A DNA stretch of 24,553 bases from a virus. The position numbers and the translations under genes were made by a program. Shown one piece after another: positions 2,518-15,854 of this stretch. Where the stretch lies: positions 1 through 24,553 of the IMG/VR virus record IMGVR_UViG_3300031565_000352; one strand, given 5' to 3'. Every line of letters begins with the position of its first letter. Position 1 is the first letter of the stretch. The notes beneath the pieces were generated by a model that made no database searches, was not told the DNA's origin, and saw only the letters and a list, made by a program, of their open reading frames with translations.

Positions 2518-4155
2518 ATGATTCCAATTTTTAATACTATAATAAATAAATATAAAGCGGTTTTTAGTCCGACACTGGAACCGGCCAGCACAGCTCAAAA
2601 ACGTAAAACTTCAATAAAAAATTTTTCCAGATATGGCTCCCCTGATAAATTCCCGGGCGGCGTCAGTAAACGGAGAACCTCCGAAATCATACATGATCAT
2701 TTAACATTACGGCAACAGTCTCGAGATGCAATGTTTGACTCGACCGTGGCTAAATCAATGGTTGATAGGTTTGCTGATACGGTAGTTGATACCGGCTTAA
2801 AAGTAAAGCCGACGCCGATGACAAATATTATCGGGATAACACCGGAAGAAGGCGAAAAATGGGCCGAAAATGTTGCCGAATTATATCATCTGTGGTCTAA
2901 ATCTAAAAAATCACATACGTCAAGAGTAAATAATAATTATCAAAATCAACGATTATATGGAATTTTTCAGCAGCGAGATAATGATGTCTTTGTTCAATTA
3001 AATTACAGCCGGGAAAAAGATCAAATAAATCCATTATCGTACGAGTTTGTAGAGCCTAACCAGGTCCGAGGGAATGCGATAACTTCTTCTTACGCACAAA
3101 TCCCAGGTGATGACGGTATTGTACGTGATAGCAAAAATAGAGAAATTGGGTATAAAATTTGGGAATGGGTAGAAGGAAAATATAAAGAGCGAGAAATTCC
3201 CGCTCGTGGGGAAAAATCAGGCCGTATTTTTATGTTGCATGGTTTTAATCCTGAATATGCCAACCAGGGGCGAGGATTTCCACGCTTAACTCATGCGTTG
3301 CAAGAATTTGAACAACTTACAGATTTCAAGCAGTCCGTTATCAAAAAAGCAATTTCGCAATCTTCAATTTCTATGGTAATGGAGAACGAACAACAGGACG
3401 CTTCAAATCCGTTAGAGGGTGTTGGCTCAGGCCCAAGGTCAAAATATGGAGATTTTGACGAAGGGACCGAAAATTTACACAGTAGCGCTTTAGATGAGCC
3501 TATTGTTAATTATAATTTATTGCCGGAAGCAACTTTTCACGATCCGGGCTCAATAGGAATTTTTAACGCAAGAAGAGGGGACAAATTAAAACCATTTCAA
3601 GACACCTCTCCCTCTGAAAGTTTTGCTACTTTTGTTGATTCTTTTTGTTCGCATTTAAGCGCTTCGACCGGAATGCCGCTTGAAGTTTTACTCATGAAAT
3701 TCAATGCTAATTATTCAGCTTCCAGGGCGGCTTTAATTCTTTTTTGGCGAGTGGCTCAAATTTGGCGGAACGAAATGGCGGCAGATTATCTTGATCCGAT
3801 CTATGAAATGTGGTTATCTGAGGAGATAGCACTTGGTCGGGTTAAATGTCCAGGTTGGCAAAATCCAATAATCAGAGAAGCATGGCTTTGCAAAGATTGG
3901 TCGGGCGCTCCGATGCCTAATATTGATCCACTGAAAACAATGGCAGCCGATAGGGGTTATATTGAGATGGGAAGTCAAACTCTTGACGATGCCGCATTAA
4001 ATTATAATGGATCGTCAGGCAAGGCCAACAGAATAAAAAACGCAAGACAATTTAAAGAAGTTCCTCAACCTCCCTGGCCGTGGCCGATAGTTACCGAAAA
4101 AGAAGACTCAAAAGATAAAGAAGACAAAGAAGACAAAGAAGAGGAGAACGAATAA
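2518..4155 (+). CDS. Portal protein, lambda gpB family
   Basis: Dodecameric ring at the unique capsid vertex, through which DNA enters and to which the tail attaches. The 545-residue length is close to lambda gpB. Family-like features are the early segment RYGSPDKFPGG with SEIIHDHLTLRQQSRDAMFD, the region around residues 155-195 ending in EFVEPNQVRG, the GRGFPRLTHALQEFEQLTDFK stretch and the late STGMPLEVLLMKF...SASRAAL block. These correspond to the wing and clip/stem core of the phage_portal_2 family. The last 20 or so residues are a low-complexity Asp/Lys/Glu run (repeated KED), which looks like a flexible acidic tail. A GAGGAG lies before the ATG. It directly follows the gpW-like gene and is followed by an accessory block rather than by the head protease. 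Confidence 0.93.
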   Translation: MIPIFNTIINKYKAVFSPTLEPASTAQKRKTSIKNFSRYGSPDKFPGGVSKRRTSEIIHDHLTLRQQSRDAMFDSTVAKSMVDRFADTVVDTGLKVKPTPMTNIIGITPEEGEKWAENVAELYHLWSKSKKSHTSRVNNNYQNQRLYGIFQQRDNDVFVQLNYSREKDQINPLSYEFVEPNQVRGNAITSSYAQIPGDDGIVRDSKNREIGYKIWEWVEGKYKEREIPARGEKSGRIFMLHGFNPEYANQGRGFPRLTHALQEFEQLTDFKQSVIKKAISQSSISMVMENEQQDASNPLEGVGSGPRSKYGDFDEGTENLHSSALDEPIVNYNLLPEATFHDPGSIGIFNARRGDKLKPFQDTSPSESFATFVDSFCSHLSASTGMPLEVLLMKFNANYSASRAALILFWRVAQIWRNEMAADYLDPIYEMWLSEEIALGRVKCPGWQNPIIREAWLCKDWSGAPMPNIDPLKTMAADRGYIEMGSQTLDDAALNYNGSSGKANRIKNARQFKEVPQPPWPWPIVTEKEDSKDKEDKEDKEEENE

Positions 4156-7330: not shown

Positions 7331-7537
7331 ATGTTACAACCACCCCAAACCGAGAACCTTGTTAAAATTATTATCATTCTTTCCGGTATTTTGGTTAGTA
7401 GTTGGGTCGTTTTTGGTTTTTTTGTTATTCGTCTTATTAAAGGATACGACGATCAAATCAGAGATGTTTACCAAAAAATCACAGATATACCAGCAATCAA
7501 AACAGATATAAACTGGTTAAAGGATAAAAAGAAATGA
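7331..7537 (+). CDS. Small membrane protein, candidate holin
   Basis: A 68-residue protein with a single hydrophobic segment at residues about 11-35 and a charged amphipathic C-terminal helix ending KTDINWLKDKKK, a tail reminiscent of XhlA/holin-type small phage proteins. An AGGAG lies 12 bases before the ATG. Its TGA overlaps the peptidase start (ATGA), and a candidate holin directly before a lytic-enzyme candidate is a classical lysis arrangement. A different-frame ORF at 7308-7511 also has a start, a Shine-Dalgarno-like AGGG and a hydrophobic stretch; I prefer 7331 because of the coupled junction and the cleaner topology. The holin role is inferred from size, topology and position. Confidence 0.6.
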   Translation: MLQPPQTENLVKIIIILSGILVSSWVVFGFFVIRLIKGYDDQIRDVYQKITDIPAIKTDINWLKDKKK

Positions 7538-8082
7538 TAAAAAAAATAAATCAAACAAAAAAATATTACAATCAATATTTTGATATTGATGACATTTTAA
7601 AAACAGAGCAAAATGAAAAAAATATAACTTGCAATGTCACTTGTATATCAATGATAACCGGCGAAAATCCCAACATGGTTTTATGTAAATTTTTAGAACG
7701 ATATGGCCAAAATAAAAAATATCAATGGGAAGAAAATTTAATTTCTTATTTAAAAGAAAATGGTTTTTCTTGTAAACCTATTACGGAATTGGCATGGCCA
7801 AAATCAAAAGTTATTACTGAAAATGATTTGGAAAAAATGAGATCGGCAATTGATAAAGGCAAAATTATTTATTATCATGAGTCTGGCCATTATAGTTTAA
7901 TGGTAGGCTATGAAAAATGTAAAAATGATGAAATTTTATATATATTTAATGATCCGGCTGGAGATCGAAAAATCAGATATGTCGGAAAAAGAACTCTTGA
8001 GTCAGGCTTAAATGTAAGATATAAAAAATCATTTCTGGAATTTAGGCCGCTTTTTGGCAGATGTTGGGCGGTGACAATATGA
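7534..8082 (+). CDS. C39-like (papain-fold) cysteine peptidase, candidate lysis enzyme
   Basis: A 182-residue protein with the three hallmarks of the Peptidase_C39_2-like family in the right order. CNVTCISMI at residues 33-41 fits the C-x-(P/x)-(T/A)-S-x-x-M pattern, with Cys33 the likely nucleophile. GHYSLMVGY starts at 118, with His119 as base. FNDPAGD contains Asp140. There is no signal peptide, so release would need a holin, which the upstream gene could provide. The product overlaps both neighbours by four bases (ATGA). No muramidase, amidase or CHAP endolysin is present in the window, so this is the best endolysin candidate. Cleavage of peptidoglycan cross-links is inferred; a role in protein maturation or in tail-associated digestion is also possible. 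Confidence 0.65.
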   Translation: MIKKINQTKKYYNQYFDIDDILKTEQNEKNITCNVTCISMITGENPNMVLCKFLERYGQNKKYQWEENLISYLKENGFSCKPITELAWPKSKVITENDLEKMRSAIDKGKIIYYHESGHYSLMVGYEKCKNDEILYIFNDPAGDRKIRYVGKRTLESGLNVRYKKSFLEFRPLFGRCWAVTI

Positions 8083-8249
8083 CCTGGGCAAAAGATTTAA
8101 TTAAAAAAATTCCATCGTTTACCAGGGATCAAATAAAATGGATTCTAGTCGGGCTAGCTTTCTTTTTGCTTTTAGTTTTGCGAGACTGTAATATAAAAAC
8201 AAAATATTTTGATATAGAATCGAATTCAAAAATTGAGGTTAAAAAATGA
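8079..8249 (+). CDS. Small single-span membrane protein in the lysis cassette
   Basis: Starting at ATG 8079, which forms an ATGA overlap with the peptidase stop, gives 56 residues; an upstream in-frame ATG at 8061 would add six. One hydrophobic helix (WILVGLAFFLLLVL) lies near residues 22-36, preceded by a basic amphipathic stretch and followed by about 20 polar residues ending in Lys. The positive N-terminal flank predicts an N-in, C-out topology. The stop overlaps the lipoprotein start. It could be an antiholin, a second holin or the inner-membrane partner of the lipoprotein, although its periplasmic part is short for an i-spanin. No family recognised. Confidence 0.55.
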   Translation: MTWAKDLIKKIPSFTRDQIKWILVGLAFFLLLVLRDCNIKTKYFDIESNSKIEVKK

Positions 8250-8500
8250 AATTATTTATTGTTTTCTTCTTTATAACGTTTTTTTTGGGGTGTGTTAGCG
8301 CTCCAGATCGTAAAAATTTTTCAAACGAAGCGTCATATTTCGCGGCGTATTGTTTTTATATTACAAAAGATAATGCAAAATGTCAGAATTCGGAAATGGA
8401 AGCCAGGGCTTTTAACAAATATTTGTTTTGTCTTGACTCGAAAAATTGGCCAGAAAAAACAAATTTTGATAATTGTTGGAAAACTTTAAATCAAAAATAA
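8246..8500 (+). CDS. Small cysteine-rich lipoprotein, spanin-like position
   Basis: An 84-residue protein with a clear lipoprotein signal: a Lys, a hydrophobic core and FFLGC, which puts the lipidated Cys at residue 16. The mature part of about 69 residues has four further cysteines (in AAYCF, AKCQN, LFCLD and DNCWK), compatible with two disulphides in an oxidising compartment. It starts at an ATGA overlap with the membrane protein gene and is the last gene of the cassette, the place where outer-membrane spanin lipoproteins are often encoded. It lacks the Pro-rich character of classic Rz1. A surface-exclusion (superinfection immunity) lipoprotein is an alternative. Confidence 0.6.
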   Translation: MKLFIVFFFITFFLGCVSAPDRKNFSNEASYFAAYCFYITKDNAKCQNSEMEARAFNKYLFCLDSKNWPEKTNFDNCWKTLNQK

Positions 8501-8552: not shown

Positions 8553-9704
8553 ATGGCTAAAATGAAAAAAATTATTATATCAGGCGAAATTGGATGGGAG
8601 GTTATGCCTGACGACATAAGACGTCAGCTTAATTTTGCTAACGGAGCCGATCTTGATATTGAAGTTTCTAGTCCAGGCGGCTCTGTTTTCGATGGAATAG
8701 AAATTTATAATATGATTCGTGATTATAAAAAAGATCATCCAAAAAGTCAAATAATGATGACAATAAAAGGGCTTGCCGCTTCGATGGCTTCTTATTTAGT
8801 TTCTAATCCGGCAATAGATTTAAGAGTTGCCGAGGATAACGCCGTTTTTATGATACATAATGCTTGGGGTTATAGTGTGGGCGATTATAGAGACATGCTA
8901 AAAGCGGCAGAAGTTTTTGGAGGTCTTACCGATCTAATCGGCCAGGCTTACGCAAAAATAACCGGGAAAGAATTGTCTGTAATTAGAACAATGATGGACA
9001 ATGAAAGTTGGTTTTTCGGTAAAGAAATTTATGAAAATGGTTTTGTTGATGAAATGGCAGCGCCAATTGGAAATGAAAAAGAAACGACTAAAGAAAAAGC
9101 AATATTAAAAGCAAAATCAGATTTCAATATATTCTCTAAAAAAGTTGAAGAAAAAAAAGAAAGAACAAATTTTGAACAAATAGCGGCAATGATTACAGGA
9201 GAAAAAGATGAATTTCTCCCTTTGATCATTCCTGAAAATAAAATTATAGAACCTGCGCTTGTCGCAGCAATTAAACCGGAGGTTATTATTATGGATTTAG
9301 AACAATTATTAAAAGAAAATCCCGCCGCAAAATTTAAATATGATGAAGATTTAAAAAATCAATTTAGTGCGGGCGTTTTGAGTGGAACAAATAAAATGCA
9401 AACTAAATTTGATGCAGTTTCAAAATATTTAGTCCCAAATTCTGAGTATGGCAAATCTGTAAAGTCGGCAGCAATTGACGTATTGACAGGAAACAAAGAA
9501 ATAGGCTACCTTGATATGCTTGCAACGGCTATGGATGCAATCAAAGAATCTACAAACTCCGTAGCAGCAATTGACGAGTCAACAGGCTTACCGGCAGTTT
9601 CGGGAACTGATCCTAAAATCACTCAGGACGGAATTATAAGAACAGAACAAGACTTCCAAGCCGAATGCGAACGTTTTAAAACTGTAAATGGGATGGGAGT
9701 ATAA
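8553..9704 (+). CDS. Head maturation protease (ClpP-like) with C-terminal scaffold region
   Basis: A 383-residue protein corresponding to lambda gpC. Residues 1-175 are a ClpP-fold serine protease: SSPGGSVFDG at 39-48, catalytic Ser77 in GLAASMASYL, and His102 in FMIHNAWG. The protease trims portal and scaffold inside the procapsid. After a charged linker (about 175-215), residues 247-383 form a scaffold-like region opening MDLEQLLKENPAAKFKYDED. This region has its own strong ribosome binding site (see 9291-9704), as lambda Nu3 does within gpC. An AAAGG lies 11 bases before the ATG, downstream of motif B. The decoration and capsid genes follow directly. The fusion of protease and scaffold in one frame is normal for this family. 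Confidence 0.92.
   Translation: MAKMKKIIISGEIGWEVMPDDIRRQLNFANGADLDIEVSSPGGSVFDGIEIYNMIRDYKKDHPKSQIMMTIKGLAASMASYLVSNPAIDLRVAEDNAVFMIHNAWGYSVGDYRDMLKAAEVFGGLTDLIGQAYAKITGKELSVIRTMMDNESWFFGKEIYENGFVDEMAAPIGNEKETTKEKAILKAKSDFNIFSKKVEEKKERTNFEQIAAMITGEKDEFLPLIIPENKIIEPALVAAIKPEVIIMDLEQLLKENPAAKFKYDEDLKNQFSAGVLSGTNKMQTKFDAVSKYLVPNSEYGKSVKSAAIDVLTGNKEIGYLDMLATAMDAIKESTNSVAAIDESTGLPAVSGTDPKITQDGIIRTEQDFQAECERFKTVNGMGV
9278..9282 (+). promoter_or_regulatory. Internal ribosome binding site for the nested scaffold
   Basis: GGAGG eight bases before the in-frame ATG at 9291. It is among the best Shine-Dalgarno sequences in the window although it lies inside a coding region, which supports internal initiation. 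Confidence 0.65.
9291..9704 (+). CDS. Nested capsid scaffold protein (Nu3-like), in-frame internal start
   Basis: Starts at Met247 of the protease frame and shares its stop, giving 137 residues. Support comes from the GGAGG eight bases upstream, from the boundary lying after a variable linker and before a compact helical region, and from the known lambda C/Nu3 arrangement. The product would be the abundant internal scaffold around which the gpE-type capsid protein assembles, and the protease would later digest it. The C-terminal part (DFQAECERFKTVNGMGV) may contact capsid subunits. Separate expression is inferred from sequence alone. Confidence 0.65.
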   Translation: MDLEQLLKENPAAKFKYDEDLKNQFSAGVLSGTNKMQTKFDAVSKYLVPNSEYGKSVKSAAIDVLTGNKEIGYLDMLATAMDAIKESTNSVAAIDESTGLPAVSGTDPKITQDGIIRTEQDFQAECERFKTVNGMGV

Positions 9705-14664: not shown

Positions 14665-15042
14665 ATGATTGTAGGTACAGTTAAAAAAATAATTATCGGC
14701 GGGATTACTTACGCAGTCCCGGCAGATGTCAATTTGACAGTCAATTTGTCATCTTATGTAACGGAAGGGATGCCAACGTCAGGTGATACAGTTTTTAAAA
14801 AGACTAAAAGAGTTCCGACTATAGAAGGCGCTGACATAATAACAAGTTTCAAAGAGGCCGCAAGTTTGAAAACCGTTGCGGAATCGTTGGCGAATACGAC
14901 ATTAGCGGTAGTATTTGCAGACAATACGACTTATAGATCGACGGGTCAAATAAATTTTGAAAATTTTGAGTCAGAGACTGGAAGAAGCAAAGTTACTTTG
15001 ATACCTTCAACGTCAGTTGATCCGTGGACGGTCACACCATAA
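14665..15042 (+). CDS. Tail tube protein (Mu gpM type)
   Basis: A 125-residue protein with the family order: IVGTVKKIIIGGITYAVPADVNL, SSYVTEGMPTSGD, KRVPTIEGADI and a closing GRSKVTLIPS strand. It stacks as hexamers to form the inner tube inside the sheath, through which DNA passes. The ATG at 14665 is chosen over GTG 14650 because GGAGG (14652-14656) lies eight bases upstream. The length is close to Mu gpM. Its TAA overlaps the glycosyltransferase start by one base. Confidence 0.88.
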   Translation: MIVGTVKKIIIGGITYAVPADVNLTVNLSSYVTEGMPTSGDTVFKKTKRVPTIEGADIITSFKEAASLKTVAESLANTTLAVVFADNTTYRSTGQINFENFESETGRSKVTLIPSTSVDPWTVTP

Positions 15043-15854
15043 TGATTGATCCGGTTTATATATTGATCCGAACATCTGGACGGCCGTTGTTTTTCAAAAG
15101 AATGATGGAAACAATTAAAAATCAAACTTATAAAAATATTGTTACCATTATTCACAGCGACGATCCACGAGATCAATATATAAACGGGGATATTATTATA
15201 AAAGGTCATGTTTATGGCCCCGAATTTGGTGACGGAACTTATAATTTATATAATAATAGATTGTTAAGAACCATTCCGACAGGCCCTGGTTGGTATCATT
15301 TTATTGATGATGATGACGAATATAATTCTAATGATGTTATTGAAAAATTAGTTGAAAATTCAAAAAAAGAATGTGTAAATGTTGCAAAAGTTTCACGCTG
15401 GGATAAAACAATCTGGCCGAAAAACTGGGGAACTCAAAAAAGCTATCAAACAGAATGCTTTTTCTTGCACACTGACCATAAATTAAAAGCTCAGTGGTGG
15501 GGGAATCGTGGTGGCGATCATCATTATAGTAAGCAGCTAACAAAAATTTTACCAGTAAATTGGATAGAAAATTTATTGATCTGTAAAGCTCAAGAGGGAA
15601 AAGGGCATGGTTCGAAAAAAGACAAGGGCGGGAAACTTTTTGATTATAGTAAATCATTAAAACCTACTGATAAGATTCATGTTTTAGGTTTAAGCACAAA
15701 TAAAAAAGGCCCTCGCAAAAACTGGATAAAAAGAAGAGAAATAAAAGAAGTTGATTATTTTACAGCTTTAGAAATGGAAGAGAAAAAAATTGCAAAAATT
15801 ACGTTTAATGGAACGTATAAAAAAACAGTGGCTCGACCAATATATAAAACATAA
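15042..15854 (+). CDS. Glycosyltransferase, family 2-like (GT-A), inserted in the tail operon
   Basis: A 270-residue protein with a GT-A beginning: VYILIRTSGRPLFFKRMMET, an NQTYKN turn, then IIHSDDP near residues 36-42. A strong acidic metal-binding motif, HFIDDDDEY, has Asp at 89-92 and fits the DxD. Later segments include WGNRGGDHHYSKQL (about 150-163). The C-terminal part is Lys-rich. There is no signal peptide or membrane segment, so it should act in the cytoplasm on a nucleotide-sugar donor; the acceptor is unknown. The start (TAATG) overlaps the tube stop, so it is co-translated with virion genes. Virion protein glycosylation or a small late function is possible. Confidence 0.75.
   Translation: MIDPVYILIRTSGRPLFFKRMMETIKNQTYKNIVTIIHSDDPRDQYINGDIIIKGHVYGPEFGDGTYNLYNNRLLRTIPTGPGWYHFIDDDDEYNSNDVIEKLVENSKKECVNVAKVSRWDKTIWPKNWGTQKSYQTECFFLHTDHKLKAQWWGNRGGDHHYSKQLTKILPVNWIENLLICKAQEGKGHGSKKDKGGKLFDYSKSLKPTDKIHVLGLSTNKKGPRKNWIKRREIKEVDYFTALEMEEKKIAKITFNGTYKKTVARPIYKT

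Follow-up and report, generated by a model that had tools for sequence, protein, structure and literature searches.

Positions 7331–8500 of the window (the whole stretch of DNA analysed here, 24,553 nucleotides) are supported as a phage lysis cassette by sequence comparison, and the C39-like peptidase encoded there is probably the endolysin of the window phage. The cassette occupies the slot between the genes for the portal and the ClpP-like head maturation protease, which, judged from the sequences of related phages, is an endolysin position with exchangeable enzymes. In addition, the reading frames across the first gene of the cassette, gene B, suggest that two overlapping membrane proteins are encoded by the same DNA.

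The phage and its lysis cassette

The window contains a lambda-like head module (terminase, portal, ClpP-like protease and capsid genes) together with Mu-like contractile-tail genes. Its portal has relatives in 44 viral loci and in four contigs that are binned as Zixibacteria, bacterium SM23_31 and Desulfobacteraceae; the host is probably a diderm, since portal relatives sit in these metagenome bins. We note that a gene between the tail tube and tape-measure genes (15024–15854) has a weak match, below the cut-off, to glycosyltransferase family 2, and is conserved in close relatives (56–70%).

Table 1. Positions of the cassette genes, their flanking landmarks and the overlapping +1 reading frames
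Feature	Position	Strand	Remarks
Window	1–24,553		IMG/VR record IMGVR_UViG_3300031565_000352; whole record, classed as a linear fragment
Lambda-type portal	2518..4155	+	TIGR01539, E 1e-28, 100 bits, below its cut-off of 172.7; query for relatives
ORF A, 67 aa	7308..7511	+	one TM; lies across gene B in the +1 frame; may be a second protein made from this DNA; +1 frame open in 59/68 codons of gene B
Gene B, 68 aa	7331..7537	+	one N-terminal TM, charged C-terminal tail; positional holin or releasin-like candidate
Peptidase_C39_2-like protein, 182 aa	7534..8082	+	no signal peptide; Cys33/His119/Asp140; candidate endolysin
One-TM protein, 56 aa	8079..8249	+	accessory lysis protein by position
Lipoprotein, 84 aa	8246..8500	+	lipobox-like FLGC; candidate outer-membrane lysis accessory or o-spanin
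ClpP-like head maturation protease	8553..9704	+	phrog_94, E 3e-52; downstream border of the slot
+1 ORF, L010	10689–10898		+1 frame open in 66/67 codons
+1 ORF, L012	7442–7648		61/62 codons
+1 ORF, L066	3279–3500		61/62 codons
+1 ORF, L067	4007		57/65 codons; single coordinate
+1 ORF, L068	217		65/71 codons; single coordinate
+1 ORF, L085	2135		62/76 codons; single coordinate
+1 ORF, L130	3963		72/73 codons; single coordinate

An earlier note on this DNA had described four small genes joined by three consecutive ATGA overlaps, and this description holds; the overlaps lie at 7534–7537, 8079–8082 and 8246–8249, and the start of the third gene must be the ATG at 8079 and not the mechanical ORF start at 8061. 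Overlaps of 4 nt occur at 6 of the 30 gene junctions in the window and so reflect tight packing, not by themselves a special cassette, and we rejected them as stand-alone evidence for one. A run of three linking four small genes is nevertheless notable.

Homologues of gene B are found in L067 (46% identity, E 1.6e-17), L068, L012, L010, L085 and L130. All eight homologues examined have few lysines and arginines before the TM segment and more after it (a charge count by a simple rule, not a topology predictor), suggesting by the positive-inside rule that gene B encodes a single-TM protein of N-out/C-in topology. The first gene had been called a holin in the earlier note; it is a real TM gene with a clear relative in L067, and the name holin is positional, gene B having no match to a holin family. 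The lysis genes of phage Mu encode a SAR endolysin (gp22), spanins (gp23/gp23.1) and a releasin of the DUF2730 family (gp25), the last with a single TM and N-out/C-in topology (PMC9239132). Lysis without a classical multi-TM holin is possible. The window phage has Mu-like contractile-tail genes, and by its charge counts gene B has the single N-terminal TM and N-out/C-in topology of the DUF2730 releasins. Unlike Mu, it gives no match to PF10805 (DUF2730), a family without matches in all 11 records searched, and the enzyme encoded next to it has no SAR or signal segment and belongs to another class.

The third and fourth genes are, as the note had it, a small membrane protein and a lipoprotein. 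The 56 aa TM protein is 32% identical over 56 aa to a protein of L010 (E 5e-5 to 9e-5); the TM protein of similar size that L068 has at this position is related to that of L010 (E 1.4e-5) and not measurably to that of the window. Homologues of the lipoprotein occupy the same place in L066, L067 and L068 (E 3e-7 to 1e-12), and L010 has none. As to the features of a two-component spanin, the lipobox is present in the lipoprotein, and its 56 aa partner has only about 20 residues after the TM. Because homologues of gene B, the lipoprotein and the small TM protein recur in relatives, several parts of the cassette, by these sequence matches, stay in place as the enzyme varies.

The slot between portal and protease genes in relatives

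The gap between portal and protease genes was read in all portal relatives, and a second set of relatives was found through the protease. Directly upstream of the protease gene, Amidase_2 enzymes are encoded in L005, L012 and L066, an M15_3 enzyme in L026, and M15_4 enzymes in L032, L036 and L044; these slot hydrolases are usually preceded by a small one-TM protein. A C39_2 protein is present in the slot of the window, of L010 and of the more distant L077 (35.9 bits). The C39-like protein of the window thus stands in the lysis-cassette position of its relatives' known wall hydrolases, and the presence of Amidase_2, M15 or C39_2 proteins there is the basis for reading the slot as an endolysin position with exchangeable enzymes. 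If this is correct, one lysis slot accommodates wall hydrolases of no fewer than three unrelated types (amidase, M15 and C39), which interchange while the neighbouring membrane genes persist.

Lysis genes are not always found there. L014 and L025 have none in the slot; their Amidase_2 genes lie elsewhere, that of L025 alongside TM proteins behind the tail genes. In many relatives the gap is taken up by tail-fibre-like or unknown genes. The last observation would fit a collection of unrelated small genes (morons) between portal and protease, whose resemblance to a lysis cassette is accidental; this we regard as hardly probable at all, since several relatives repeat the combination of a TM protein and a wall hydrolase immediately before the protease, and different enzymes have homologues of gene B and the lipoprotein as neighbours. 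Chance small genes were rejected as an explanation of the cassette on the slot survey.

Several other proteins in this region deserve mention. At L077:3271–4785 the C39_2 protein is followed by a 3-TM protein, a TM/coil protein and an overlapping, out-of-frame lipoprotein, a spanin-like layout. In L073 a one-TM protein precedes a DUF261-like one (3343–3882; 24.0 bits, cut-off 26.1), which may be another enzyme type in the slot, and the slot proteins L072:5049–5507 (DUF5675) and L130:4196–4702 (phrog_1501) are possible unrecognised lysis enzymes. The 189 aa protein in the same position in L068 (430–999) was considered as a remote papain-like enzyme, and Pfam gives this no support. Very small ORFs beside the C39 gene of L054 (7856–8023) and the M15 gene of L026 (11202–11360) resemble anaerobic ribonucleotide reductase (NRDD) at its C-terminal end only.

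The C39-like peptidase as candidate endolysin

The 182 aa protein matches PF13529 (Peptidase_C39_2) with 24.0 bits (E 6e-5), which is exactly the curated cut-off of 24. Its homologues in L010 and L077 score above this cut-off (28.1 and 35.9 bits) and that in L054 below it (20.9 bits). The L010 protein is 53% identical and occupies the corresponding position, its gene being two genes ahead of the protease-side landmark. The L054 protein, found by a search with that of L010, is 54% identical to the window peptidase; it is encoded on an unrelated 42.7 kb phage contig among early small genes, outside the late lysis slot though adjoining a TM protein. In the alignment of the three sequences Cys33, His119, Asp140 and Gln14 are invariant, and the Cys, His and Asp, the triad named in the earlier note, have the order of the Peptidase_C39_2 catalytic residues.

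CHAP and NlpC/P60 had no match in the window, NLPC_P60 reaching only 12.9 bits (cut-off 23) on the C39 gene of L010. Homology searches of phage and plasmid records with the peptidase or its homologues found nothing significant. A profile search likewise found none among 297 genomes from the phylum to which the Desulfobacteraceae MAG belongs, nor among 132 from that of the Zixibacteria MAG. Sequence and fold searches of the PDB gave nothing usable (the papain-like protease Procerain-B at rank 6, with E 1.2, is not evidence). AlphaFold models from a single sequence and from three sequences were poor (pLDDT 37.5 and 48.8, pTM 0.32 and 0.50), too poor to separate C39 from CHAP or NlpC, and Foldseek found no significant fold match with them.

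The bacteriocin-type Peptidase_C39 family (PF03412) was rejected: it matches the L010 and L054 proteins weakly (18.7 and 17.5 bits; cut-off 22) and is not listed for the window protein, and no ABC transporter domain is present. These weak similarities, and the coupling of genes for small membrane proteins to the peptidase gene, are what would be expected if the peptidase trimmed or activated its membrane neighbours, as the C39 domains of ABC transporters trim leader peptides. We consider such a role very improbable, because the PF03412 scores are below the cut-off, it would leave L010 and the window without an endolysin, and a task of this kind would not be carried out by the Amidase_2 or M15 enzymes that relatives have at this position.

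In line with the note, which names no muramidase, amidase or transglycosylase as present in the window, no other peptidoglycan hydrolase was found among the proteins scanned in this 24.5 kb linear fragment or by family searches of the record, where Phage_lysozyme, M23, M15_4, NLPC_P60 and SLT had no hit. On the 41 kb contig of L010, which may be incomplete, the C39 protein is the only wall-hydrolase candidate by Pfam among the non-structural and baseplate ORFs, so that the conventional endolysin elsewhere in the genome, which the note had set against its own proposal, was not found in this near relative. The L054 contig is probably complete, as it has exact 114 bp terminal repeats, and no other hydrolase was seen among the ORFs read by eye or the best 25 of its 54 PHROG families. 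Searches with Amidase_2, Phage_lysozyme, M23, M15_4, NLPC_P60 and SLT likewise found no other hydrolase in the L010 or L054 contig. Because the family searches used a loose first look, which missed the real amidase of L012, they count as support but not as an exhaustive survey. The endolysin reading is supported by these scans, in which near-full-length relatives that carry the C39 gene showed no other wall hydrolase, and gains further support from the Amidase_2 and M15 enzymes that hold the same position in other relatives.

C39 peptidases beside separate endolysins have been reported for Shewanella phage S0112 and Pantoea phage Nufs112. We also found, in a relative (record G450, L062:2491–4360), a protein with PG_binding_1 and Amidase_2 domains followed by a C39_2 protein with a lipobox-like signal, so a C39_2 protein can coexist with an endolysin, and C39_2 membership alone is no proof of endolysin function. 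These cases fit an alternative in which the C39-like protein is a cytoplasmic protease for host take-over, counter-defence or phage-protein processing and the true endolysin is encoded outside the window, as do the early-gene neighbours of the L054 copy and the fact that the window, a fragment, largely lacks the region behind the tail genes where L025 has its amidase. In L010, however, that region is present and showed no hydrolase in the scans, and relatives carry wall hydrolases in the slot itself; we therefore think this alternative unlikely. We note that a protein is encoded behind the tail genes of L010 at 28069–28584 in reversed coordinates of contig G001 (L055:12409–12921, minus strand), and that the L010 proteins scanned include one with a match to Acb2/Tad1_hairpin (PF24729, E 7e-20); the two are possibly the same, which would suggest a counter-defence gene.

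Against an endolysin count the PF13529 score just at the cut-off (and below it in L054), the early-gene context of the L054 copy, the poor AlphaFold models, the fragmentary state of the window, and the phages S0112, Nufs112 and G450 in which C39 and a separate endolysin occur together; with these included, we still hold an endolysin to be the probable identity of the peptidase. In that case the enzyme, made without a signal peptide, would stay in the cytoplasm until the gene B protein, perhaps with the ORF A product, let it through or released it at the inner membrane. With Cys33, His119 and Asp140 it would then cleave peptidoglycan at a peptide bond of the stem or of the cross-bridge, doing the job of its relatives' Amidase_2 or M15 enzymes, and the small TM protein and the lipoprotein would help to breach the outer membrane. 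These roles, the activity, the bond cut and the order of the steps are inferred.

The earlier note had proposed an unusual endolysin type. The protein does sit in the endolysin position, but C39_2 endolysin domains are already in the literature: C39-like N5 domains occur in mycobacteriophage LysA proteins such as Bxz2 gp11 (PMC3314691), and PET-C39-2 is listed among endolysin domains (PMC5017753). Like the window protein these are papain-like Cys/His/Asp domains, there forming the catalytic part of the endolysin; the window protein differs in being a single 182 aa domain with neither a second catalytic nor a cell-wall-binding domain. One survey found Peptidase_C39_2 lysins to be exclusive to Gram-positive phages (PMC8223927), whereas the phages of the window group probably have diderm hosts. 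The "lysozyme" gp111 of Synechococcus phage S-CRES1 contains C39_2 (42 bits) with a Glucosaminidase domain, and C39_2 thus occurs in the lysin of a phage with a diderm host; there, unlike in the window, it is fused behind the Glucosaminidase domain and is not encoded in such a cassette. What is unusual is therefore that C39_2 would serve by itself in a phage whose host is probably a diderm, and if the endolysin reading is true, C39-type endolysins extend to single-domain enzymes of such phages.

A second reading frame across gene B

A +1 ORF with a TM segment of its own crosses gene B in 8/8 homologues examined. The codon-permutation p value is 0.018 in the window and ranges from 0.0015 to 0.10 over the eight loci; Fisher's combination gives 1e-7, which overstates the evidence because the loci are related, though most pairs are strongly diverged, and the test was made after the pattern had been noticed. 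Among 601 control stretches from other window genes, 8 are equally open in the +1 frame, and none of 16 other small TM or lysis-region genes has a +1 p below 0.1. L022, a weak gene B match, has no open +1 frame, and in the partial L071 it is open in 57/64 codons (p 0.19). Synonymous-codon randomisation of one frame lowers the similarity in the other for several pairs and in both directions, in a score to which stops and shared ancestry contribute.

From these patterns we give the translation of ORF A about an even chance. Slightly less probable is the full arrangement in which a single ribosome-binding site serves two close starts that differ in frame, and the same DNA yields two one-TM proteins, perhaps opposite in topology, that act as a holin/antiholin or releasin/holin pair and control exchangeable endolysins, among them the stand-alone C39-type. 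Should ORF A be translated, the pair of frames would form an out-of-frame parallel to the dual-start holin of lambda. A lysis gene that lies inside another in the +1 frame is familiar from lambda Rz/Rz1.

The paired start codons are exactly 5 nt apart (RTGRRNTG) in 6/8 loci, 2 nt apart (ATGTG) in L010 and 23 nt apart in the window. In E. coli, AUGUG has been demonstrated to allow initiation in overlapping frames, and among phages the known case is the in-frame dual start of lambda (PMC9841429). Like those of ORF A and gene B, the two starts of lambda S105/S107 lie a few bases apart; the lambda starts are in frame (AUGAAGAUG, PMC9841429), whereas here they are out of frame and would yield two different one-TM proteins from the same DNA.
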